Of a DNA stretch of 64,000 nt, positions 25,490 to 31,098 are shown piece after piece. Both the position numbers and the translations under genes were made by a program. Each line of letters opens with the position of its first letter. Position 1 is the first letter of the stretch. A model generated the notes under the pieces. It was not told the DNA's origin. It was given only the letters and a program-made list of their open reading frames with translations, and ran no database searches. Source of the DNA: Aeoliella mucimassa (GTDB lineage: Bacteria; Planctomycetota; Planctomycetia; Pirellulales; Lacipirellulaceae); NCBI RefSeq assembly GCF_007748035.1, contig NZ_CP036278.1, positions 3,162,001 to 3,226,000 of the forward strand, in the 5' to 3' direction.

Positions 25490-26281
25490 ATGATCGAAGT
25501 CATCGGCCTATCCAAGGTATATGAAGACCTGAAGCTTGGGCCACGCGTCGCGCTCGATCGTCTGAGTTTCTCGGCCGAACCCGGCGAGGTGTTTGGTTTG
25601 CTTGGCCCTAACGGAGCCGGCAAGACAACCGCCCTTCGGATTCTGGCGACACTTATCAAACCCACTAGTGGAACCGCCCGCATCAATGGGTTTGATTGCG
25701 AAACCCAGCCCGAGTTGGTCCGCCATCAAATCGGCTACATCTCGGCCAACGCGGCCATGTACGATCGCATGACCGCCTGGGAAATGGTCGAGTACTTTGG
25801 CAAGCTGCATCACCTGGATCCTGAACTGCTCGCCGAGCGAATGCACCGCTTGTTCGATCGGCTGAAAATGAACGAAATACGCGACGTGCTCGGCGGCAAA
25901 ATGTCGACCGGCATGAAGCAAAAGGTCGCGATCGCCCGCGCGATGGTGCACGAACCACCGGTGCTGATCTTCGACGAAGCAACCAATGGGCTCGACGTAC
26001 TCGTCGCCCGCTCGCTGCTCGATACGGTTCGCGACCTCCGCGACCAAGGGAAATGCATCATCTTCTCGTCGCACATCATGCGCGAAGTCGAGCGTCTGTG
26101 CACACGCATCGTGATCTTGCATCATGGGCGGATCCTCGCCGAGGGGTCTTTGCAGGATTTACATCGCGAGCATGGCCACGACGACATCGAAGAAGTGTTT
26201 CTCGACCTCATTAGTAAAGAGGAACAACGCCAGGCTGAGCAGGCGCAAGGCGATTCGGCTGCCATGGAGGCCCTCCGTTGA
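25490..26281 (+). CDS. ABC transporter ATP-binding protein (NatA-like)
   Basis: A 263-residue ATPase with Walker A GPNGAGKTTA (about 39-48), a degenerate signature MSTGMKQKVAIARA (about 138-151), Walker B VLIFDEATNGLD (about 158-169) and H-loop SSHIM. ATG 25490 is preferred to TTG 25475. It overlaps the permease/protease gene by 4 bp (TTGA), so they work together. By resemblance to NatA it may extrude sodium or another small substrate; this is not established. Confidence 0.9.
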   Translation: MIEVIGLSKVYEDLKLGPRVALDRLSFSAEPGEVFGLLGPNGAGKTTALRILATLIKPTSGTARINGFDCETQPELVRHQIGYISANAAMYDRMTAWEMVEYFGKLHHLDPELLAERMHRLFDRLKMNEIRDVLGGKMSTGMKQKVAIARAMVHEPPVLIFDEATNGLDVLVARSLLDTVRDLRDQGKCIIFSSHIMREVERLCTRIVILHHGRILAEGSLQDLHREHGHDDIEEVFLDLISKEEQRQAEQAQGDSAAMEALR

Positions 26282-28539
26282 ATTGGGACAATGTAAAACT
26301 CGTCTGGCAGCGGGAGATCCGCGACCAACTCCGCGACCGCCGCACGTTGTTTGTCATCTGTGTGCTGCCGCTGATGATTTATCCGATGATCGGCGTCACG
26401 TTCAGTCGGATGAGTCAGTTCGTGCGTCAGCACGATGCTACGGTCACCGTGGTGGGGTACGAACAGCTGGCCGACCGCAGCGAGTACCCTGCGTTGGTGT
26501 CGGAGGGCAAGTTTGCGACCGAGTTGTTCGACAACCCGAAAGAAGCCGATCGCATCAAGGTGCACCCGCTGAATAACTCGGAGAACGCGCTGGCCGATGC
26601 CCGGCAGTTGCTCGAATCGGGATCCACCGACTTGGTGGTCCACTTCCCCGATGGTTTTGCCGCCCGGCTCGACCAGCTTCGCGAAGCGACGGAAAAGGCC
26701 GACCCAACCGCCACGTTGTCGAGCGTTGGCGATCCACCGAATCCTAAGCTGTACTACAACACCGAAGATGCCTCGCAGGTGGCTCGCGGCCGCGTGCAGA
26801 TGCTGCTCGCCCGCTGGCAAGGCAAGATTGTGCAGAGCAATCTCGCGGCAGGTCGCTTGCCGCTCGATGTGACCCGGCCGTTCGAAGTGAAGGCCGAAAA
26901 CGTGGCCCCCGAGGCGACGCAGCAAGCGTCGTTCTGGGCGAAGTTGCTGCCGTTTATTGTGTTCATCTGCGCTTTGACCGGGGCGTTCTATCCCGCGGTC
27001 GACTTGTGCGCCGGCGAAAAGGAACGCGGCACCCTCGAAACCCTGCTCACGAGCCCCGCGGCTCGCAACGAGATCGTCGGCGGCAAGTTGCTCACGGTCA
27101 TTACCTTTAGTATCGGTAGCGCGCTCTGCAACCTGGCGAGCATGGCATTCACCAGTCAGATTATCATTAATCAGCTCAATCAAATTGCTCCAGCCGGCGA
27201 GATGCCGCTTGCTGCTCCTTCGCTGGTGAGTATTGGTTGGTTGTTGGTCGCTTTGGTTCCCATGTCGGTCGTGTTTAGCGCGGCCAGCCTGGCTTTGGCT
27301 TCGCTCGCGGGAAGCACCAAAGAGGGCCAGTATTATCTGATGCCGCTGTTCCTGGTTTGCATGCCATTGATGTTGCTGCCGATGATGCCGGGCGTGGAAC
27401 TCACCCTGGCGACCAGCATGGTGCCGATCAGCGGAATGGTGCTGCTGATGCAAGCTGCGATGGAAGGCAAGCTGCTGCTGGCTGCCACCTACGTGCTGCC
27501 GGTGTTGGTGGTGACTTTCGGTTGCTGTGCATTGGCCATCCGCTGGGCGATCGATCAGTTCAATCAAGAGTCGGTGCTGTTCCGCGATGCGGAGAACTTC
27601 GACCTCATCACCTGGGTGCGGTACTCCTATCGTCATCGTCCTGAGACCCCCAAGTTGGGGGCAGCGGTGGCCTTGATTAGCTTGATACTCATGGCTCAGT
27701 TCCTTTCGCAAAGCGTCGCGATCGATCTTCAGGCCCCCGGTGGGTTTGAAAAAATCCTGCTTTTGAGCCAGCTGCTCTGTATTCTGCTGCCGACTTTAGT
27801 GGTCGCTTATCTGAGTTCCAGCTCGCTTCGTAGTACTTTTCTGCTAAAGAATCCGATTCCGTGGAAGTCGATCGTGATTGCTGGCTTGCTAGCGGTCGCG
27901 ATGGTGCCGCTCGGCACCGCCTTAATGGAGTTGATTGTCTACTTTGTGCCGGTCTCCTCGGAGCTGATGGACCTTATTGCGAAGCTCGGAAATATCGAGG
28001 GCGGCCCCGGGATGTCGGTGGGCAAGGTGCTGCTGCTCATGGCCGTTATGCCTGCAATTATCGAGGAATTTGCCTTCCGCGGGGTGATTCTGTCGGGTTT
28101 TCGGAATCGGCTACCAGCAGTTTGGGCGGTCGTTCTCACGGCCATTTCCTTCGGGGTTGTGCACGCAACTGCTTTGCAGCAAACGATTTCCGCCGGATTC
28201 CTCGGGCTGGTGCTGGGGTATATTGCTGTAAAATCAAAACAAATTACGCCTTGTATCGCGTTTCATATGGGGTACAACGGGTTGCAGTTGTTGCGAACGA
28301 TCTTCGCTAGCGACCTGGACAAGCAACCATGGGCACACTGGGTGTTCCGGCAGACGGATTCCCCGGTCGTTGGTCTGAGTTTTACCCCTTGGGTGCTTGT
28401 ACTCATGGCCCTGGCGGCGATCGCTCTCCTTTGGCAATTCGGACATCACCACCGCCAGTCGGCGGGAACGCTCGGATTGCAGGATAGCGGTAGTTCGCCT
28501 ATGCCAACTGCTGCGCCCGCCGAGGAGTCGGGGGCGTAA
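26278..28539 (+). CDS. ABC-2 permease fused to a CPBP (CAAX-type) intramembrane protease
   Basis: A 753-residue membrane protein with TTG start. Residues 1-430 are a NatB-like ABC-2 permease: an N-terminal helix, a large external loop (about 50-220), then a cluster of membrane segments with CAGEKERGTLETLLTSPA. Residues about 480-720 are a CPBP protease domain with its metal/catalytic motifs EEFAFRG (about 597-603), FGVVHA (about 624-629) and the later H..YN in AFHMGYN. All key residues are kept, so the protease part looks active. Such fusions are known; the protease target is unknown. Coupled to the upstream ATPase. Confidence 0.9.
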   Translation: MNWDNVKLVWQREIRDQLRDRRTLFVICVLPLMIYPMIGVTFSRMSQFVRQHDATVTVVGYEQLADRSEYPALVSEGKFATELFDNPKEADRIKVHPLNNSENALADARQLLESGSTDLVVHFPDGFAARLDQLREATEKADPTATLSSVGDPPNPKLYYNTEDASQVARGRVQMLLARWQGKIVQSNLAAGRLPLDVTRPFEVKAENVAPEATQQASFWAKLLPFIVFICALTGAFYPAVDLCAGEKERGTLETLLTSPAARNEIVGGKLLTVITFSIGSALCNLASMAFTSQIIINQLNQIAPAGEMPLAAPSLVSIGWLLVALVPMSVVFSAASLALASLAGSTKEGQYYLMPLFLVCMPLMLLPMMPGVELTLATSMVPISGMVLLMQAAMEGKLLLAATYVLPVLVVTFGCCALAIRWAIDQFNQESVLFRDAENFDLITWVRYSYRHRPETPKLGAAVALISLILMAQFLSQSVAIDLQAPGGFEKILLLSQLLCILLPTLVVAYLSSSSLRSTFLLKNPIPWKSIVIAGLLAVAMVPLGTALMELIVYFVPVSSELMDLIAKLGNIEGGPGMSVGKVLLLMAVMPAIIEEFAFRGVILSGFRNRLPAVWAVVLTAISFGVVHATALQQTISAGFLGLVLGYIAVKSKQITPCIAFHMGYNGLQLLRTIFASDLDKQPWAHWVFRQTDSPVVGLSFTPWVLVLMALAAIALLWQFGHHHRQSAGTLGLQDSGSSPMPTAAPAEESGA

Positions 28540-30376: not shown

Positions 30377-30456
30377 ACCCGGGTTTGGTTTAAGTCCGCC
30401 ATGCCAGGAGTCGATAATTTTACCCGGGTGATATGGACGCCCATTTATACCCGGGT
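30377..30456. promoter_or_regulatory. Three ACCCGGGT palindromes upstream of the DUF2239 gene
   Basis: The 8-bp perfect palindrome ACCCGGGT occurs at 30377-30384, 30422-30429 and 30449-30456, the last two flanked by T on the left and embedded in an A/T-richer context. The spacing is 45 and 27 bp. The last copy ends 60 bp before the ATG, a suitable place for an operator. No regulator gene is adjacent. Confidence 0.55.
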
Positions 30457-30516
30457 ACAATTGCGTCGCCGGTGCAGCACACCAGCTCGGCGATCGAACG
30501 TAAGAAGGAGTAAACC

Positions 30517-31098
30517 ATGGCGGATGAAGAGAACACGTACACCTCGTTTAAGGGGTATCAGCGAGTCGCCTCGGGCGATTTGTCGAGCATGTTGCTCGAG
30601 ACCAAGGAGCACATCGAGACTAGCGGAGAAGAATCGCTGCTGATATTCGAGGACACCACCGGACGGCAGGTGGAATTCGACTTCCGCGGCACCGCCGACG
30701 AAGTCCTCGAACGCCACGGCGCGGCCAAGCCCCGCGTCGGCCCGGGCCGCCCCAAGTTGGGAGTCACCGCCCGCGAGGTTACCCTTTTGCCACGGCAGTG
30801 GGATTGGCTCGAGCAGCAACCCAAAGGCATCTCGGCCACGCTTCGCAAGCTGGTGGACGAAGCTCGCAAGCAAGAGCCCAATCGCGAGCGGGCGCGGCGA
30901 CTTCGCGACGCGGCGGGCAAGTTCATGTGGGCAATGGCCGGCAACCTGCCCGACTTCGAAGAAGCCTCGCGGGCGCTGTACGCCAACGACTTCAGCAGTC
31001 TGCAAGCGAAGATCAGTGACTGGCCAACCGACATCCGCGAACATATTACCCGGTTGCTCGATCAGTGCGCTGAATTGCAGGAAGCGGCTGGTGAGTAA
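30517..31098 (+). CDS. DUF2239 family protein
   Basis: A 193-residue cytoplasmic protein. The layout matches DUF2239 as I know it: an N-terminal YTSFKGYQRVASGDL segment, IFEDTTGRQVEFDFRGT (about 45-61), a GPGRPKLGVTAREVTLLPRQWDWL block (about 75-98), then KFMWAMAGNLPDFEEASRALYANDF (about 131-155). The family has no defined biochemical role; the GRPKLGV and WDWL segment could be a DNA-binding or ribbon-helix-helix-like element. A good SD, AAGGAG, is 8 bp before the ATG. It is monocistronic and preceded by three ACCCGGGT palindromes. Confidence 0.87.
   Translation: MADEENTYTSFKGYQRVASGDLSSMLLETKEHIETSGEESLLIFEDTTGRQVEFDFRGTADEVLERHGAAKPRVGPGRPKLGVTAREVTLLPRQWDWLEQQPKGISATLRKLVDEARKQEPNRERARRLRDAAGKFMWAMAGNLPDFEEASRALYANDFSSLQAKISDWPTDIREHITRLLDQCAELQEAAGE

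Follow-up and report, generated by a model that had tools for sequence, protein, structure and literature searches.

The 64 kb stretch of DNA analysed here (the window) carries a gene for a 193-amino acid (aa) DUF2239 protein, the only copy found in its genome. The product is a clear full-length member of the family, covering positions 1–181 of the 182 in the PF09998 profile, for which the score cut-off is 25. Its 3′ neighbour is a sulfate permease gene on the opposite strand, and no MATE pump gene lies alongside. Upstream, the 8-bp palindrome ACCCGGGT occurs three times within 80 bp, and we could locate all three of the copies listed in the initial annotation. Conservation covers the second and third copies, which are the two operators, O1 and O2, of the promoter TTTTAYCCGGRTAATATTGAC-N-TTTTAYCCGGRTAAAAT; it does not extend to the first copy. 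The features of the locus, with the basis of each in brackets, are as follows.

30377..30384, no strand: most upstream copy of ACCCGGGT, without AT-rich flanks (word match)
30422..30429, no strand: operator O1 (ATTTTACCCGGGTGATAT), just 5′ of the −35 box (letters; operator pair present at 71 of the 87 loci compared)
30434..30439, forward strand: predicted −35 hexamer TGGACG, 4 of 6 matches to TTGACA (letters; TTGAC between the operators in 60 of 71 pairs)
30449..30456, no strand: operator O2 (TTTATACCCGGGTACAAT), within the −35/−10 spacer and touching the −10 box (word match; locus comparison)
30456..30461, forward strand: predicted −10 hexamer TACAAT (letters; in 69 of 71 pairs O2 is followed by a hexamer sharing at least 4 of 6 positions with TATAAT)
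30505..30510, forward strand: likely ribosome-binding site AAGGAG (letters and position)
30517..31098, forward strand: DUF2239 protein, 193 aa, proposed autoregulator (PF09998, 237.6 bits, E 1.1e-70)
30739..30888, forward strand: central near-invariant segment, residues 75–124, proposed DNA-binding part with extended arm, helix, turn and helix (alignment and model)

The three copies of ACCCGGGT are separated by 45 and 27 bp, as previously described, and the word occurs nowhere else in the 64 kb. Across the whole genome (6,608,792 bases) there are 32 copies, compared with 52 for the same word read backwards. The 29 copies outside the DUF2239 cluster correspond to about one per 228 kb, so that three within 80 bp are not a chance occurrence, and the genome count (32 in 6.61 Mb) agrees with the earlier statement that such a cluster is very unlikely. 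Fifteen of these 29 copies were inspected, and the longest frames overlying them measure 94 to 1002 aa. In favour of a chance cluster of a functionless palindrome, when the entire 64 kb window was shuffled 100 times, seven of the shuffled sequences contained at least three copies somewhere, in a test that ignores clustering.

DUF2239 genes are scattered among related bacteria. They were found in 7 of 294 genomes in a draw from the phylum and in 2 of 59 genomes in a set of relatives, with the window's own genome included in each, a patchy distribution that points to acquisition by transfer or to recurrent loss. The laboratory species Caulobacter vibrioides also has a member of the family. To compare upstream regions we assembled 87 loci, consisting of the window, six further DUF2239 loci from the phylum, and 80 loci from named genomes, the latter being the best 80 of 574 and including many from Bradyrhizobium. 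According to their record titles, the 80 loci originate from Pseudomonadota, Acidobacteria, Myxococcota, Armatimonadetes, Melainabacteria, Verrucomicrobia and Planctomycetota, and from Chloroploca, Chlorobiaceae, Trueperaceae and Desulfovibrio. One of them (L055) is titled Frankia sp. RB7, yet its upstream region and MATE neighbour are Bradyrhizobium-like, and the title may be wrong.

The upstream regions share a common design, TTTTA-YCCGGR-TAATATTGAC, a few bases, and TTTTA-YCCGGR-TAAAAT. When a site is defined as YCCGGR with at least eight A or T among the ten flanking positions and no more than 220 bp upstream of the gene, one or more sites occur at 85 of the 87 loci (counting the window) and two or more at 73. 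The rest of the same loci contains eight AT-flanked YCCGGR words in 511,917 bases, two of which make up a second double site in locus L090. The two loci lacking an AT-flanked site are L019 and L028, the latter of which carries a variant pair. A draw of 289 alphaproteobacterial genomes, which shares at least one genome with the 87-locus set (G390, locus L090/L153), yielded 22 DUF2239 genes in 21 genomes; 21 of these genes are preceded by at least one site and 15 by at least two, compared with four sites in 70,795 bp elsewhere. A 6-mer count, made with no preset word on the 68 non-redundant upstream regions of the 87, ranked CGGGTA/TACCCG first (64 of 68 regions, versus a frequency of 0.042 in random windows of the same loci), followed by GGGTAA, ACCCGG, TATTGA and ATTGAC. 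The palindrome is therefore neither common throughout the genome nor absent from related promoters, the two outcomes that the initial annotation had set against its own proposal. Genome rarity, the counts of 85 of 87 and 21 of 22 loci, and the 6-mer ranking rule out a chance or common word, and the narrow spacing and promoter register of these sites (see below) likewise leave a functionless cluster with a negligible probability.

For plasmid loci (8 of 24 records examined, including Deinococcus and, from the Bacillota, Paenibacillus), the pair or a variant of it was recognised by eye. DUF2239 relatives are also encoded on ten IMG/VR viral contigs (L287–L296), six of which have an AT-flanked site within 480 bp before the core match.

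Pairs of operators spaced 24–31 bp apart were recognised in 71 of the 87 loci, and in 59 of these the spacing is 27 or 28 bp. Spacings of 45 and 27 bp had originally been taken to suggest cooperative binding by a regulator; the 27-bp spacing recurs, but the 45-bp spacing was not seen in the other loci. The sequence TTGAC lies between O1 and O2 in 60 of the 71 pairs. The best hexamer 3′ of O1 has five or six matches to TTGACA in 62 of the 71 and the best hexamer 3′ of O2 at least four of six matches to TATAAT in 69; each score is the maximum over several offsets (12 and 9, respectively) and is without a shuffled control. The predicted −35 and −10 boxes are most often 17 bp apart (35 of 71), as in a normal promoter. 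In the general register, O1 abuts the predicted −35 box and O2 fills the −35/−10 spacer. DUF2239 genes thus share with those of autoregulated transcription factors a conserved operator that overlaps their own (predicted) promoter. The A before and the T after the core each carry 1.5 to 1.8 bits of information and the arms 0.6 to 1.7 bits; the letters of the core and a high A+T content in the flanks were themselves search conditions.

The first copy in the window (30377) is not a conserved part of this arrangement. AT-rich flanks and the promoter boxes conserved elsewhere are found only at the second and third copies. Additional YCCGGR words occur within 100 bp upstream of O1 in 25 of the 71 paired loci (35 sites, versus ∼8 expected at 0.115 per 100 bp), and among these only the window's lies at 45 bp, which led us to reject the first copy as a conserved third operator. 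It is possibly an auxiliary site or a leftover. Most of the additional words are found 41 bp, and often 18 bp, 5′ of O1 in related Bradyrhizobium (L034–L080) and lack AT flanks.

The register also bears on how the sites may act. Palindromes 5′ of a gene could function in RNA, for example as an attenuator or a leader hairpin, but O1 and O2 are located at the predicted −35 and −10 boxes, upstream of the expected (predicted) transcription start, and we regard an RNA-level role as very unlikely. Since the operators lie at −35 and within the −35/−10 spacer, a protein bound to them would keep RNA polymerase off the promoter. Some regulators alter promoter use from just upstream of −35, which is where O1 is found, and a DUF2239 protein that activates its promoter, or switches between repression and activation, would fit that position. 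However, O2 sits in the spacer and touches the −10 box, and the commonest spacer, at 17 bp, is that of a normal promoter, making activation an unlikely alternative to repression.

To relate the double site to DUF2239 genomes, we used a strict pattern, CCGGRT-N1-2-TATTGAC-N4-14-YCCGGR, which is insensitive and would miss the window promoter (TATGGAC). Nine of the 289 alphaproteobacterial genomes matched it, all of them among the 21 with PF09998 and none among the 268 without; a reversed control gave one match. By position, seven of the nine matches are at the DUF2239 promoter, one (G390) precedes a different gene ∼1.3 kb from it, and the last (G676, L203) is chance-like. Because most of these matches are the gene's own promoter and one is chance-like, co-occurrence alone does not separate a regulator from a target. 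A relaxed pattern allowing two mismatches matched 12 genomes of the same draw, with one match in the reversed control. Eight of the 12 contain DUF2239, each with the match at its own promoter and no distant target, and four lack it; two of the latter matches fall inside long frames (644 and 797 aa) and the other two outside any frame of at least 90 aa. A further scan covered the genomes of 50 of the 80 named-genome loci, chosen for holding DUF2239. Here the strict pattern gave 29 matches in 27 genomes and none in the reversed control; 25 of the 29 are 35–102 bp before a DUF2239 match and two have no DUF2239 in the flanks examined. The relaxed pattern gave 46 rows in 35 of the 50 genomes, several places being matched on both strands, and again none in the control. 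Pattern matches at L202 and L203 were judged by eye, from their GC-rich coding context, to be chance and were dropped.

The proteins encoded behind these promoters share a near-invariant core. After near-identical Bradyrhizobium-type rows were left out, 77 of the 87 loci remained, with 73 distinct segments that share the sequence GPGRPKLGVVAREVTLLPRHWxWLxxQPGGASVALRKLVEEAR at a mean column identity of 81%. An AlphaFold2 model of DUF2239 (mean pLDDT 90.7) consists of an N-terminal beta/alpha part, a low-confidence linker and C-terminal helices, with the core helices at residues 92–99 and 105–119. A model of the core segment places helices at its positions 18–25 and 31–45 after an extended stretch, with no strand in the monomer. 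This order of extended segment, short helix, turn and second helix is also seen in the ribbon-helix-helix (RHH) autorepressors (RHH_1/CopG-Arc-MetJ and BrnA). RHH proteins bind palindromes in their own promoters and repress themselves, as we propose for DUF2239. A GRP-type basic arm likewise occurs in some BrnA sequences. In DUF2239 this arm resembles an AT-hook, which would suit the AT flanks of the operator.

DUF2239 was nonetheless not assigned to the RHH group. DUF2239 shows no significant profile similarity to RHH proteins, has an invariant Trp pair and an LLPRHW motif, and carries its core between an N-terminal beta/alpha part and C-terminal helices. In hhalign comparisons the RHH_1 set gave a probability of 1.6 and a score of 11.8, a value that 4 of 100 column shuffles attained, and the BrnA set a probability of 0.7 and a score of 10.7, which at least 10 of 100 shuffles surpassed; RHH_1 versus BrnA, the positive control, gave 87.1. 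In a Pfam scan of the 77 members no family other than DUF2239 matched more than three, none of the matches was to an RHH family, and TetR_C_15 matched once (E 3.7). Foldseek searches with the full model and the core gave no convincing match, and a VIA search gave nothing for the DUF2239 core and Z scores of at most 7.8 for the C-terminal helices. No convincing relative with a solved structure was identified by sequence.

At two loci a departure from the common operator can be set against the core. On an Acinetobacter baumannii plasmid (L274) the core reads TLQKKHW in place of TLLPRHW and the operators are ACCCTGAT and ACCCCGAT in place of AYCCGGRT, a joint change that, in this one sequence, is possibly co-variation of operator and core. 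In L028 the operator departs and residues 83–92 are of the common form, which argues against a simple rule linking core to operator.

These comparisons bear on what binds the palindromes. The initial annotation had left the regulator unidentified; the comparisons support the palindromes as regulatory sites tied to DUF2239, and the best candidate regulator is now DUF2239 itself. A different and more widespread regulator might bind them, with DUF2239 merely one of its targets. The location of operators in the promoter of a gene does not alone reveal which protein binds them, a DNA-binding fold in DUF2239 was not confirmed by the Pfam, profile or Foldseek comparisons, and distant targets were sought in DUF2239 genomes only. 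Nonetheless, the strict double site occurs in 9 of the 21 alphaproteobacterial DUF2239 genomes (seven times at the gene's own promoter) and in 0 of the 268 without DUF2239, and the relaxed site occurs in 4 of those 268, poorly kept, against one match in the reversed control. Moreover, a near-invariant basic DUF2239 core accompanies a near-invariant operator across phyla. We therefore consider a separate regulator improbable and favour DUF2239 as the binder of its own operators.

The double site is not confined to DUF2239 promoters. Within the DUF2239 genomes it also precedes four other genes, each with no DUF2239 match within ∼1.5 kb on either side: a MATE exporter gene in a Myxococcales genome (L116), the gene of a small GIY-like protein in Kaistia granuli (L137), one of RPE65/carotenoid-oxygenase type in Paraburkholderia (L199) and, in Dyella amyloliquefaciens (L200), a DUF1330-like gene. 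Names for the genes at L199 and L200 were assigned by eye, by comparison with relatives that have Pfam matches. ‘DUF1330-like’ denotes a sub-threshold Pfam match together with plasmid annotation, and ‘GIY-like’ a weak similarity to a model of group I intron endonucleases (E ∼5e-5 and 7e-5) that is below the cut-off, absent from the Dyella protein and accompanied by no Pfam match. In Polaromonas (L134/L205) a single double operator precedes both a P-loop kinase gene (AAA_33) and a second DUF2239 gene, and the kinase was dropped as a distant target on account of that second gene. Two further candidates were likewise set aside. In Bradyrhizobium altum (L124) the double site is at a divergent pair of GIY-like and DUF1330-like genes just 1.3 kb from DUF2239, and in Dyella sp. 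ASV21 (L201) a DUF1330-like part is fused to a degenerate C-terminal half of DUF2239, with the double operator 5′ and a GIY-like gene 3′.

Several of the same families are neighbours of DUF2239. Among the 59 of 87 loci for which a simple frame caller found a next gene on the same strand, that gene is MatE in 25 (17 Bradyrhizobium-type loci, the rest from Kaistia, Vineibacter, Pandoraea and Dyella) and RPE65 in three. DUF1330 proteins are encoded 3′ of DUF2239 on plasmids of Rhizobium, Eleftheria and Paenibacillus and are ∼60–71% identical to each other and to their counterparts at L124 and L201. A GIY-like gene is divergent from DUF2239 at 9 of the 22 alphaproteobacterial loci, with starts 78–185 bp apart. 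That the same few families are associated with the operator both beside and away from DUF2239 is the strongest sign of a regulon, albeit within a search for distant targets confined to DUF2239 genomes. The same double operator before a few other genes suggests that DUF2239 would also act in trans on a small regulon, which looks like one for export or detoxification. A separate fusion occurs in Caulobacter sp. S45 (L099:216–1784), where DUF2239 and an APH-type phosphotransferase domain share one 523-aa frame.

An adjoining export pump and operators over the (predicted) promoter recall the TetR/QacR and MarR/MexR types, in which the regulator gene adjoins and controls an export pump. For DUF2239 the likeness is seen at the level of the family, with MatE as the next gene at 25 of 59 loci and the double operator at L116, but the window gene has no exporter partner. 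DUF2239 also differs from these types in that neither family was consistently matched in the 77-member Pfam scan, its pump partner is of the MATE type, and its operator-promoter cassette is conserved across phyla.

Drawing on the conserved site, its geometry with the predicted promoter boxes, its co-occurrence with DUF2239 within a single class draw and the recurring partner genes, we infer that DUF2239 proteins are probably an unrecognised family of DNA-binding transcription regulators that repress themselves and a small regulon. A DUF2239 protein would bind the palindrome TTTTAYCCGGRTAAAA, and an oligomer on O1 and O2 would keep RNA polymerase off, a negative autoregulation that would limit the protein's own amount. 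In some genomes it would also act in trans on genes for MATE efflux, DUF1330-like, small GIY-like and RPE65/carotenoid-oxygenase-type proteins. A signal, perhaps a compound exported by the MATE pump, would release DUF2239 from its operators.

A fuller picture is plausible without being probable. DUF2239 may be a new transcription-factor family with its own DNA-reading core that moved between phyla together with its operator-promoter cassette; it may sense a toxic compound and release a small resistance regulon of MATE pump, GIY-like small protein, DUF1330 and oxygenase-type enzymes and, in one case, a phosphotransferase fused to it, with specificity having changed naturally in the single Acinetobacter sequence.

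Self-repression is well known among regulators; the DUF2239 family, its operator and its regulon appear to be new. No paper naming DUF2239, PF09998 or COG3644 (which we take to be a label for the same family) was found in the literature searched, outside of which were most subscription papers and all bioRxiv preprints. Among the literature matches listed for ACCCGGGT, the titles and the opening parts of the abstracts concern other subjects. Literature and database searches returned no function, operator or structure for the family, which is annotated only as uncharacterised. If correct, our reading would provide the first function for a family present in many bacterial phyla, and the conservation of the operator would allow members of the regulon to be read from genomes.

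In the window organism itself, the single-site pattern WWAYCCGGRTNNNAW has seven matches in the genome, versus 2 + 3 in the controls, with no convincing target beyond O1 and O2; the other five matches lie in frames of 580, 951, 782, 1004 and 122 aa. As no partner bearing the site was seen, the switch there may control only itself. Elsewhere in the window, a 753-aa frame (26278–28539), which by eye resembles an exporter permease of the ABC type joined at its C-terminus to a membrane protease of the CPBP type, adjoins an ABC ATPase frame.
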